From: a virus
Direction: 5' to 3' (one strand)
Length of the DNA: 28,019 bases
IMG/VR virus record: IMGVR_UViG_3300034072_000104
Span: 1 to 28,019 of that record
Shown: piece after piece, positions 1 through 3,577 of the stretch
Numbering within the stretch: the stretch's first letter is position 1
How the letters are laid out: the number at the start of each line of letters is the position of its first letter
Translations under genes and position numbers: made by a program
Notes under the pieces: model-generated
Seen by the model: the letters and a program-made list of their open reading frames with translations, nothing else
Databases searched by the model: none
Told to the model about the DNA's origin: nothing

Positions 1-553
1 CTCGCCTAATACCTTTCAGCGCAGTTTCGGTAAGCGGTGACTTCTTGGCCTTTCTGATAGCAAGAAAGTCATCCCAAACAGATTCGCTAACGTCACTAGG
101 ACGAAGCGAGCTTGCCGAGCGTGTATTTATAGTTGGTTGTTGGTTATTGGTTATTGGTTGTTGGTTATTGGTTGGTTGCTCGGTCGTTGAACGCTCGTTG
201 AACGGCTGTTGAACGCCCGTTGAACGCTTGTTCATCGCTCGTTTAGCGGCCGATGCTTTTCCAGCCTTAGAAGCAGACTCTAGCTGCTGATGATAGTGTC
301 CTATCTCTCTATCGCATCGCTTGTGATGCCAGCTTCCTTCTTCAAGCGTGAAGAACATATTTAGAAGCCCTGAGATCACCTGCTCTTTATCTCGCCCATT
401 GACTTTCATGGAAAGCTCAAACAACGAGTCTGGCAAAGGTTTTTCTGTGTCGTAGTAAAGCCAGAGCAGCTTCATGTAAATCCCAACCTCTTCGTTGGTC
501 AGGAATGAAGTGTCTTTTATGAAGTCACCGATATGGTGTTGGTAGTAGTGCAT
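1..553 (-). CDS. DUF1376-type phage replication protein, N-terminal part, cut by the left edge
   Basis: I translated this open frame myself; it reads from ATG at 553 off the left edge, so about 184 residues are visible. It opens MHYYQHHIGDF, followed by helices rich in aromatic and acidic residues (FLTNEEVGIYMKLLWLYY). This is the usual start of DUF1376/YdaU-like proteins, winged-helix-like proteins found in phage replication modules and likely to bind DNA. After about residue 95 comes a low-complexity linker of Asn/Gln/Pro/Thr encoded by short DNA repeats. A charged C-terminal segment (SVWDDFLAIRKAKK) resembles other phage replication proteins. An in-frame ATG at 577 would add eight residues, but 553 has a GGGG ribosome site 5 bases upstream and matches family starts. 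The role as initiator or helicase-loader partner is inferred; the missing C-terminus could change it. Confidence 0.8.
   Translation of the reverse strand, partial: MHYYQHHIGDFIKDTSFLTNEEVGIYMKLLWLYYDTEKPLPDSLFELSMKVNGRDKEQVISGLLNMFFTLEEGSWHHKRCDREIGHYHQQLESASKAGKASAAKRAMNKRSTGVQQPFNERSTTEQPTNNQQPITNNQQPTINTRSASSLRPSDVSESVWDDFLAIRKAKKSPLTETALKGIRR
133..174. repeat. Six tandem 7-bp direct repeats, TTGGTTR
   Basis: Six uninterrupted copies of TTGG followed by TTG or TTA start at 133, 140, 147, 154, 161 and 168. They lie inside the linker of the DUF1376-type gene, where three units encode seven residues (N-N-Q-Q-P-I-T). The period is not a multiple of three. An origin-associated array is possible, but slippage-prone linker DNA is the simpler alternative. 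Confidence 0.9.
187..252. repeat. Six 11-bp direct repeats, iteron-like
   Basis: Units start at 187, 198, 209, 220, 231 and 242. The first four begin with exact TTGAACG; the last two are degenerate (TTCATCG, TTTAGCG). The spacing is exactly 11 bases throughout, about one helical turn, so a protein could contact every unit from one face of the DNA. The array sits 12 bases from the 7-bp array and inside a replication gene, as the lambda origin iterons sit inside gene O. Function as an origin is inferred. Confidence 0.85.
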
Positions 554-1376: not shown

Positions 1377-1440
1377 CTGGGCACTATGCGCGCTATTGGG
1401 GATTTGCTACGGAACACTGCTCTTCCTGTTCATAAAGTAA
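1309..1440 (+). CDS. Short single-span membrane protein overlapping the previous gene
   Basis: A 43-residue protein starting at an ATG five bases after AAGGA. The N-terminal half is polar and Asn-rich (MTTNNSWNNRNLNL). The C-terminal half is a membrane segment (WALCALLGICYGTLLFLFI) ending in Lys, preceded by positive charges. It overlaps the acidic gene in another frame for 68 bases, then fills the otherwise empty gap up to the annealing-protein gene. The good ribosome site and clean membrane helix support it; the overlap is the main doubt. The same frame is open from further upstream, but the ATG at 1309 is the best-placed start. Role unknown. Confidence 0.45.
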   Translation: MTTNNSWNNRNLNLTKYKPTRSDWALCALLGICYGTLLFLFIK

Positions 1441-1451
1441 AGGAGCTAAAC

Positions 1452-1982
1452 ATGAAATTCGCTGAGTTAAACAAAATCAACGTCAACAGCAAGATCGAGA
1501 AGAAGAACAACCTCTCGTATCTATCCTGGGCTTGGGCTGTAGAGCAACTTTTGCTCAACGATCCGAGTGCTACGTGGGAGTACAAGCCTCACCAAATGTG
1601 GAACGAGACGGTCATGGTGTTCTGCGAGGTCAAAGCATTTGGAGTTTCTCGCACTGCCCAACTTCCGGTTATGGACCACAGAAACAAGGCGATCTCTAAT
1701 CCTGATGCTTTTGCAGTCAATACGGCTATGCAAAGGTGTTTAGCAAAGGCAATAGCTTTACACGGCATCGGTTTGTATATCTATGCTGGAGAGGATCTTC
1801 CTAGCGAGGAAAAGGTCGATGAGCTTGAGGCCTACAAGGCAAAACTTGAGGCGGCAGAGTCATTAGACACGTTAAAAGCAGAGTTCTCTCCGGCCTACAA
1901 AGCTATGAAAGACAAGCCAGAAATAAAAGAACTCGTCGCTGTTTACGAAGCCAAGAAGAAAGCACTTACGGAAGTCAAATGA
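1452..1982 (+). CDS. Sak-type (DUF1071) single-strand annealing protein
   Basis: A 176-residue protein. Residues 20-30 read NLSYLSWAWAV, 53-60 TVMVFCEV, 66-75 SRTAQLPVMD, and 82-116 hold the conserved NPDAFAVNTAMQRCLAKAIAL and GLYIYAGEDLP blocks. These are the signature blocks of the DUF1071/Sak phage recombinases, which pair single-stranded DNA with a complementary strand at resected ends. The C-terminal 55 residues are a Lys/Glu-rich helical tail. The frame is open from 1386, but the ATG at 1452 has AAAGGAG 6 bases upstream and starts where family members do. It is in the same operon as the exonuclease at 2981, its expected partner, with two accessory recombination genes between them. Its stop overlaps the next start. 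Confidence 0.88.
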   Translation: MKFAELNKINVNSKIEKKNNLSYLSWAWAVEQLLLNDPSATWEYKPHQMWNETVMVFCEVKAFGVSRTAQLPVMDHRNKAISNPDAFAVNTAMQRCLAKAIALHGIGLYIYAGEDLPSEEKVDELEAYKAKLEAAESLDTLKAEFSPAYKAMKDKPEIKELVAVYEAKKKALTEVK

Positions 1983-2332
1983 ACCTAGACCGCTTTGAAG
2001 AAGACTTGATCGACGACATCCAGACTGACCGCTGCAAGAAACTCTTGTGGTCGGTCATCAACCTGGCAGTTGAAGATGCCTGTCGTGCTCCGTATGCAAA
2101 AAAGCCAAGTACCGAGTCAATCACCGCGATGAGGTTTTTAATCGGGAACGGCAAGGAAGCTGACGTTGATTCTTGGCTGATGTGGTTAGACGTAAACGGT
2201 CCAGTATTTAGAAGGAGACTCTTGGAGGCTATGTACGACGATCACACAAACAAGTTCCAGGACATGGCAAAAAGAGCGTTCAGGTTCAACTACACCTGGT
2301 GGAGACAAAATGCGACTGATTTTAACGACTGA
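1979..2332 (+). CDS. Phage protein of unknown function in the recombination operon
   Basis: A 117-residue acidic, helical protein (MNLDRFEEDLIDDI...). A central helix has LLWSVINLAVEDACRAP, followed by SITAMRFLIGNG and DSWLMWLDVNG, and the Trp/Phe-rich end RFNYTWWRQNATDFND. It has no cysteines arranged as a zinc site beyond isolated ones, no signal peptide and no membrane segment. It starts in an ATGA overlap with the annealing protein and runs 23 bases into the NinB gene, so it is clearly translated as part of the same unit. Proteins of this look accompany phage recombination genes, but I know no assigned function. A role in DNA metabolism is inferred from neighbours only. Confidence 0.75.
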   Translation: MNLDRFEEDLIDDIQTDRCKKLLWSVINLAVEDACRAPYAKKPSTESITAMRFLIGNGKEADVDSWLMWLDVNGPVFRRRLLEAMYDDHTNKFQDMAKRAFRFNYTWWRQNATDFND

Positions 2333-2729
2333 GAATGAACGTAGGAGGGCTGTAGAGGCTCTACAAGACGCTGAATTGGGTTACATGGTAACTATTACCA
2401 AACCTCCTCGCACAGCGGCTCAGAATCGGTTTTATTGGGCCATCCTTACTGCGTGTTCCGAACAACTTATGAACCAGGAATACACACAGGACATCTGGCA
2501 CGAGTGGGCTAAGACAAGATTTCTGCCAACTCGGATCGTAGACCTTCCTGGCGGCCAAGTGAAAGAGATTGAGCCTTCTACCGCTTCTCTCACGGTCTCT
2601 GAATTCTCTGATCTTGTGGAACAACTCCTCCAGTACGCGTTGGAGAAAGGCTTGATCTGGACTGATGAGATGAAAGACGCTGAACTAGACTTAAGGAAGA
2701 TCAATGTACATAAACAAAAAGCTGCTTGA
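2310..2729 (+). CDS. ninB: NinB/Orf family recombination protein
   Basis: A 139-residue protein, close to the 146 of lambda Orf (NinB). Residues 34-45 read RTAAQNRFYWAI, the family's most recognisable motif, and a later block has QDIWHEWAKTRFLP and LTVSEFSDLVEQLL. NinB/Orf binds single-stranded DNA and SSB and can replace host RecFOR functions in loading the annealing or recombinase step. The ATG has GGAG 6 bases upstream and lies inside the preceding gene. Clustering with the Sak-type protein, the YbcO-like nuclease and the exonuclease matches lambdoid recombination regions. The C-terminal HKQKAA overlaps the start of the next gene by 26 bases. Confidence 0.87.
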   Translation: MRLILTTENERRRAVEALQDAELGYMVTITKPPRTAAQNRFYWAILTACSEQLMNQEYTQDIWHEWAKTRFLPTRIVDLPGGQVKEIEPSTASLTVSEFSDLVEQLLQYALEKGLIWTDEMKDAELDLRKINVHKQKAA

Positions 2730-2997
2730 GGCTTGCAGGCATATCCCTTGCGGATCGTGTTTTTGCGAAGATGGGACTGTAGTAGCTGCACACAGGAACC
2801 AAGGAAAAGGCATGGGAATAAAAGTGTCTGATGCTTTAGTAGCATCCCTGTGCTTTCGTTGTCACACATACTTAGACCAGGGAAAGGATATGTCTCGTGA
2901 AGAACGGAGAGACTTCTGGAACCAAGCGTATATCAACACGATGCAGGCAATGATCGAACGAGGATGGTTAAAGGTGCAAAATGGAACAAAGAACTGA
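2704..2997 (+). CDS. YbcO-like nuclease (DUF1364 family)
   Basis: A 97-residue protein. Cys16, Cys19, Cys21, His30, Cys50, Cys53 and His54 fall in the pattern C-x2-C-x-C...AAHRNQGKGMGIK...CFRCHTYLD, which is the core of the DUF1364/YbcO family. Members are small zinc-binding, HNH-like nucleases from lambdoid prophages (YbcO from DLP12) that often sit among nin genes. The conserved HIPCG and AAHRNQGKG segments are both present, as is the following helix REERRDFWNQAY. The ribosome site is AAGGA 6 bases before ATG. Its position between NinB and the exonuclease fits a role trimming or resolving recombination intermediates, though family members are not well characterised biochemically. Confidence 0.85.
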   Translation: MYINKKLLEACRHIPCGSCFCEDGTVVAAHRNQGKGMGIKVSDALVASLCFRCHTYLDQGKDMSREERRDFWNQAYINTMQAMIERGWLKVQNGTKN

Positions 2998-3577
2998 AGA
3001 TTGGTACAAAGCAAGACTAGGCCATGTAACGGCTTCTAGGGCTTCAGACGCGATTGCAAAGCAAGGTACGGCTACTAGACGGAACTATGCAATCCAGCTC
3101 GTCACAGAGCGTTTAACGGGCTTACAGACCGATTCCTTCACGAACGCTGCCATGCAGTGGGGTACAGAGCAAGAGCCTATCGCTAGAGTCGCTTATGAGC
3201 AGCATACAGGCTCGATTGTGGAGCAGACAGGCTTTCACAAGCACAAGAGCATAGAATGGCTTGGAGCCTCTCCTGATGGGTTTGTAGGCTCAGGTCTGAT
3301 TGAGATCAAGTGTCCTAACTCAAACACTCACGTTGATTACTTATTAGCAAAGGAGGTTCCCACTAAGTACAAAAGCCAAATGCTCACTCAAATGCTTGTG
3401 ACAGGTAAAACATGGTGCGACTTTGTAAGTTTCGACCCAAGGCTTCCCGATCACTTGCAGTTATTCATTGTCAGATATGAACCAAAGCCAGAGGAGTTCA
3501 AGATCATTGAGCTACAACTCACGAACTTTCTAGCCGAGGTGTCAGAAATGGAGAAATCGCTATGCCAAAAGAACTAA
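2981..3577 (+). CDS. YqaJ/lambda-type 5'-3' exonuclease
   Basis: A 198-residue protein, slightly shorter than the 226 of lambda Exo. It begins with the family opening RTEDWYKARLGHVTAS. Further motifs are GTEQEP at 61-66, ASPDG at 96-100, and LIEIKCP at 106-112. D99, E108 and K110 are the PD-(D/E)XK catalytic residues that bind Mg2+ and cut DNA. A later YKSQMLTQMLVTGK block is also diagnostic. Such enzymes resect double-strand ends to give 3' single strands for an annealing protein, here the Sak-type protein at 1452. AAAGG lies about 6 bases upstream of the ATG. It overlaps both neighbours, which ties it to the operon. Confidence 0.93.
   Translation: MEQRTEDWYKARLGHVTASRASDAIAKQGTATRRNYAIQLVTERLTGLQTDSFTNAAMQWGTEQEPIARVAYEQHTGSIVEQTGFHKHKSIEWLGASPDGFVGSGLIEIKCPNSNTHVDYLLAKEVPTKYKSQMLTQMLVTGKTWCDFVSFDPRLPDHLQLFIVRYEPKPEEFKIIELQLTNFLAEVSEMEKSLCQKN

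Follow-up and report, generated by a model that had tools for sequence, protein, structure and literature searches.

The window analysed here, 28,019 bases that make up an entire IMG/VR record, carries at one end the 5' part of a DUF1376 gene with two adjoining arrays of short DNA repeats in its linker. We consider it likely that these arrays constitute a self-contained candidate origin of replication embedded in the initiator gene itself, one array providing sites for the initiator and the other an unwinding element. Judged from sequence, the encoded protein most likely docks at the arrays to begin copying the genome; binding by that protein, opening at the 7-bp block and origin activity are what we infer.

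The initiator gene and its repeat arrays

The relevant features of the window are the following.

2..553, minus strand: 184-codon 5' portion of the DUF1376 initiator gene (ORF; PF07120, E 4e-23; PHROG "primosomal protein")
302..550, minus strand: DUF1376 N-terminal domain, winged-helix-like by prediction (Pfam residues 2-84; AlphaFold mean pLDDT about 92)
239..262, minus strand: tail GKASAAKR, residues 98-105, the motif type accompanying GTTSAAC iterons
186..247, no strand assigned: 11-bp iteron array (GTTGAAC at 186, 197, 208 and 219; degenerate at 230 and 241)
133..174, no strand assigned: 7-bp array, an A+C-rich, strand-asymmetric block and candidate unwinding element (coding strand AACCAAT/AACCAAC)
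2..88, minus strand: C-terminal O-like domain, beginning only (the counterpart in relative L002 matches phrog_678; helical in model)

From an ATG at 553 the gene extends along the minus strand past base 1, where the contig ends; the C-terminus of the initiator is therefore absent from the window. Residues 2-84 of the window protein match PF07120 with a score of 82 bits (gathering cut-off 30.1). A weaker, partial PHROG match is to "replication initiation O-like" (E 2e-10), and the C-terminal part of the close relative L002 corresponds to phrog_678 of the same description (E 8e-19). An N-terminal domain of lambda O type was not found, DUF1376 being the sole Pfam match.

A structure model was calculated for the full-length relative L002 with 53 homologues as input. 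It has an N-terminal domain with pLDDT of about 97 and a helical C-terminal domain, separated by a low-confidence, predicted disordered linker at roughly residues 110-155 that is rich in Asn, Gln and Pro. The N-terminal domain modelled alone (mean pLDDT 91.8) has the order helix-helix-helix-hairpin-helix. Foldseek returned no significant PDB fold match for the full model or for this domain; winged helices dominate the weak matches of the latter, and the winged-helix label is provisional because all of these matches are below significance. A PDB sequence search yielded no useful match. Adjoining the initiator gene, at 1386-3577, are divergent genes for a Sak single-strand annealing protein, NinB and a YqaJ-type nuclease.

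The original prediction placed both arrays inside the linker of a DUF1376-type gene, and the PF07120 match and the disordered linker between N- and C-terminal domains agree with this. Six 7-bp TTGGTTR units are present as described, at 133, 140, 147, 154, 161 and 168, and so is the 12-base gap between the arrays. Six 11-bp units can likewise be counted, but the proposed TTGAACG core is exact in only four of them, whose GTTGAAC sequences are spaced by exactly 11 bp; the other two, GTTCATC at 230 and GTTTAGC at 241, are in register and degenerate. GTTGCTC at 175 is a possible further degenerate unit. Since GTTSAAC is a 7-bp near-palindrome, it reads alike on both strands. Three GTTGAAC units in 11-bp register, with at most three mismatches, occur seven times in the window when both strands are counted, and the same register pattern of three units appears in none of 100 dinucleotide-preserving shuffles. 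Exact GTTGAAC pairs are absent from the rest of the window.

Conservation of the arrays as DNA

Eighty relatives of the window protein were found, with a possible bias since the linker had supplied two of the six peptides used as queries; sets free of this bias were obtained with other domain-based queries, from annotated phages and by searching 399 Pseudomonadota genomes with the Pfam model. Both arrays (at least three 11-bp units plus the AACCA block) are kept in 80/80 relatives, and relatives lacking them, which the original prediction had named as evidence against itself, did not appear. The offset from the last iteron to the first AACCA is 8 bp in 74 of the 80 and -3 in the other 6.

Codon usage was compared within the clade of the window, using 28 relatives under 90% identity. 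The share of same-amino-acid codons that differ is 47% in one half of the DUF1376 domain and 53% in the other, against 13% in the 11-bp array and 1% in the 7-bp array. The corresponding amino acid differences are 9% and 31% in the domain halves, 44% in the iterons and 31% in the 7-bp block. Synonymous sites in the arrays are frozen while the amino acids are as variable or more so, and therefore it is the DNA that is conserved and not the peptide, as had been supposed for the order of the repeats.

Periodicity was examined in 60 DUF1376 genes with at most 70% domain identity, with synonymous recoding as the null and z>3 as the threshold. Linker repetition exceeded this null at 11 bp in 24 genes and at 7 bp in 23, followed by lags of 14 (19 genes) and 22 (17 genes); lags belonging to neither series reached the threshold in at most five of the 60. 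Against codon permutation the 11-bp period is above threshold in 34/60, and none of 55 control ORFs passed at 7 or 11 bp. Roughly half of these divergent genes lack a strong 11-bp period, which speaks against the origin reading. Outside the linker, 11-bp signals were seen in 6/60 domain stretches and 5/55 C-terminal stretches, some of them partly because the arrays sit further along the gene (L107, L291). Retention of the spacing while the encoded linker varies, which had been set beforehand as a test, is thus seen both in the 80 relatives and among the 60 divergent genes, an outcome that strongly favours the original prediction.

Several individual loci deserve mention. L107:3540-3660 holds a single array of ten or so 11-bp units, and L291 has a similar number, with two separate arrays in one gene. 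In L294, masked bases start directly after the GKAS tail of the DUF1376 gene, at the expected position of the array. A linker stretch of Vibrio phage 1.183.O (L084:3361-3390) is labelled a CRISPR spacer in its record; it is more likely part of the repeat region.

Coupling of the iteron core to the protein tail

The core of the 11-bp unit changes with a short motif at the end of the N-terminal part of the protein. GTTSAAC follows a GxxSAxxR (GKAS-type) tail and AACCCA follows a GxxGGRP (GGRP-type) tail, with counts among DUF1376 representatives of 27:0 and 0:18 (Fisher p 6e-13). Independent contrasts on well-supported branches agree in 3/3 cases, a sample so small that a sign test cannot attain 0.05. 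Other 11-bp cores are present in other genes.

A scan of viral contigs made blind to the protein, requiring four exact units, yielded 113 four-unit stretches of GTTSAAC and at least 120 of AACCCA; of 399 bacterial genomes, 0 and 3, respectively, had three-unit arrays. Of 232 scanned arrays, 188 lie inside an ORF that is 110 aa or longer. With refined tail patterns, which were set after inspecting these same scan data, the counts are 31:0 and 0:13 for DUF1376 ORFs and 11:0 and 0:17 for ORFs undetected by the DUF1376 model, 15 ORFs of the latter kind having neither tail. Before refinement, the ORFs undetected by the model gave p 3e-4, with single exceptions in each direction. Some of them belong to other families, for example Lin1244_N, and the remainder may be distant DUF1376 proteins. 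By these sequence matches, the arrangement, with a matching tail for each repeat type, recurs across several kinds of putative phage initiator genes. We regard it as quite possible, if somewhat short of probable, that this reflects a portable recognition code, in which a tail of about eight residues would specify the iteron core whatever the N-terminal domain, and tail and array would travel together as a cassette between initiators of different kinds.

Unrelated C-terminal domains have been exchanged past the arrays between members of the set L002-L081, while the N-terminal domain and arrays stay together. Such swaps, just past the arrays, might suggest that the repeats are a recombination hot spot promoting exchange of C-terminal domains. 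This would leave the fixed 11-bp register and the coupling of core to tail unexplained, and synonymous change is also low in the arrays of genes that have kept their C-terminal domain; next to an origin, such exchange would be expected in any case when initiator and sites must stay together. We therefore think a hot spot very unlikely, and the origin reading would itself explain the exchange.

Arrays outside the coding sequence

Thirty-nine AACCCA arrays lie outside such ORFs, and 30 of these follow an ORF that stops near the start of the array. Eight of the 30 were inspected: in seven the ORF encodes a short initiator with an NGxxGGRP-type tail, the array mostly lying 2 bp past the stop codon, and in the eighth (L459) it encodes an unrelated protein. 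The next gene starts with a DnaB-type N-terminal domain in 3/3 loci checked (L480, L534 and L549), in a match 0.1 bits below the Pfam cut-off. In one phage group, then, the AACCCA array is kept intact though non-coding, between the initiator and DnaB helicase genes. Short initiators of about 117-160 aa, with a non-coding AACCCA array just past the stop and an NGxxGGRP-type end where fully read, are found in L435, L436, L447, L453, L455, L469, L471, L480, L534 and L549.

These observations bear on the counter-argument raised with the original prediction, that the repeats are no more than a slippage-prone, low-complexity protein linker whose DNA has no role. The predicted disorder and Asn/Gln/Pro-rich composition would suit such a linker, as would an extra 21-bp block in relative L029. 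However, synonymous sites are frozen while amino acids vary, periods that are not multiples of a triplet are kept across the family, the core depends on the tail and the array is retained where it no longer codes; concerted slippage alone would not leave spacers variable and the register fixed. This explanation is already largely refuted, and we consider it highly improbable.

Proposed mechanism and genomic context

In the mechanism that we propose for the candidate origin, the N-terminal domain and its short basic tail would bind neighbouring 11-bp iterons along a single face of the helix, each iteron corresponding to one helical turn. The assembled complex would strain the adjoining A+C-rich 7-bp block, which would open as single strands, and the C-terminal O-like domain would recruit a helicase loader or DnaB, the product of the next gene in relatives.

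An AACCA block follows the iterons in 51/83 representatives. Over its first 40 bp the coding strand is A+C-rich, and stability is lower than in the flanks. Only 26 of these 51 genes have their least stable 40-mer within the block, which is C-rich and not strongly AT-rich; it is a reasonable candidate for the unwinding element. The switch in GC skew expected at an origin fits in the circular genome ctQRb9, where the skew minimum is 189 bp from the approximate position of the array, while two other circular genomes and the window were uninformative. Among the genes directly downstream in relatives are those for a phrog_109 P-like loader (L115), an IstB/DnaC-like ATPase (L082), DnaB helicases and a protein with a primase zinc finger; the window ends before this region.

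Another function that might be proposed for the 11-bp array is that of an operator for the replication operon, bound by the encoded protein or by a host or phage repressor, with the origin elsewhere. A protein resembling a winged helix-turn-helix could control its own expression through iterons within its gene, and iterons of one helical turn suit a repressor. The array nevertheless lies inside or just after the gene, beside a block of unwinding type and, in relatives, ahead of the gene for the helicase or its loader, in a layout that agrees with the lambda ori (PMC7466680) and with SPP1 oriL (PMC6316719). An operator instead of an origin is thus improbable, and operator function may be an additional role beside that of origin.

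Partition sites also have repeats of similar unit length, 11 bp for ParR and 7 bp for omega. A centromere of either type is the least probable of the explanations considered, and we give it hardly any weight: in the relatives whose surroundings were inspected, the adjoining genes are replication genes, and the model is not of the ribbon-helix-helix fold.

If the arrays are an origin, DUF1376, which many phages and prophages carry as a "domain of unknown function", would gain a role and a prediction of its binding sites. In the available text of open-licence papers naming the domain, a description of it as an initiator was not found. Origins in unannotated phage genomes could be located by sequence alone, and specificity would be predicted from about eight residues through the coupling of tail and iteron.

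Comparison with known origins

A DNA element overlapping a phage gene is also known in BstA aba, a 63-bp element at the start of the gene with two short terminal repeats (PMC8585504); it was considered as a parallel and set aside as dissimilar to these arrays. Direct precedent for 11-bp phage iterons was not found in the open-licence literature.

The E. coli Rac prophage, which bears oriJ, contains ydaU-ydaV (PMC3945230), that is, a DUF1376 gene followed by one for an IstB/DnaC-like ATPase. In its ydaU (L082:13120-13977), several GTTSAA cores follow a GKAS tail within the linker. In contrast to the arrays described above, this one is degenerate and its 11-bp period is weak, 9 of 200 recodings being equally good. 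Coordinates of oriJ relative to the ydaU linker were not found in the open-licence literature.

SPP1 oriL lies inside gene 38 and has direct repeats bound by the gene product and an AT-rich unwinding element, and helicase loader and helicase are both encoded by the phage (PMC6316719). Direct repeats within the initiator gene are thus common to both systems, whereas the initiator and host group differ, and a coupling of tail and iteron is not described for SPP1 in the text consulted.

The layout also resembles that of lambda. Iteron units in lambda are longer than 11 bp. The position within a replication gene, which had been likened to that of the lambda origin, is in agreement here, given the O-like C-terminal domain and the P-like, DnaC-like and DnaB neighbours in relatives. 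Lambdoid origins combine iterons with a region that opens readily, both placed midway along gene O, the number of iterons varying between phages (PMC7466680). Here too, iterons and a candidate opening block lie centrally within the initiator gene, and in relatives the helicase-loader gene comes next. The differences are the 11-bp iterons with a 7-bp near-palindromic core that follows the short tail motif, the DUF1376 N-terminal domain, and a second block made of an A+C-rich 7-bp repeat. The in-gene layout of lambda type is already known, and the 11-bp iterons coupled to a tail appear to be a new variation on it. By this comparison the arrays would work as a candidate origin of lambda type, which does not imply membership of the encoded protein in the lambda O family.
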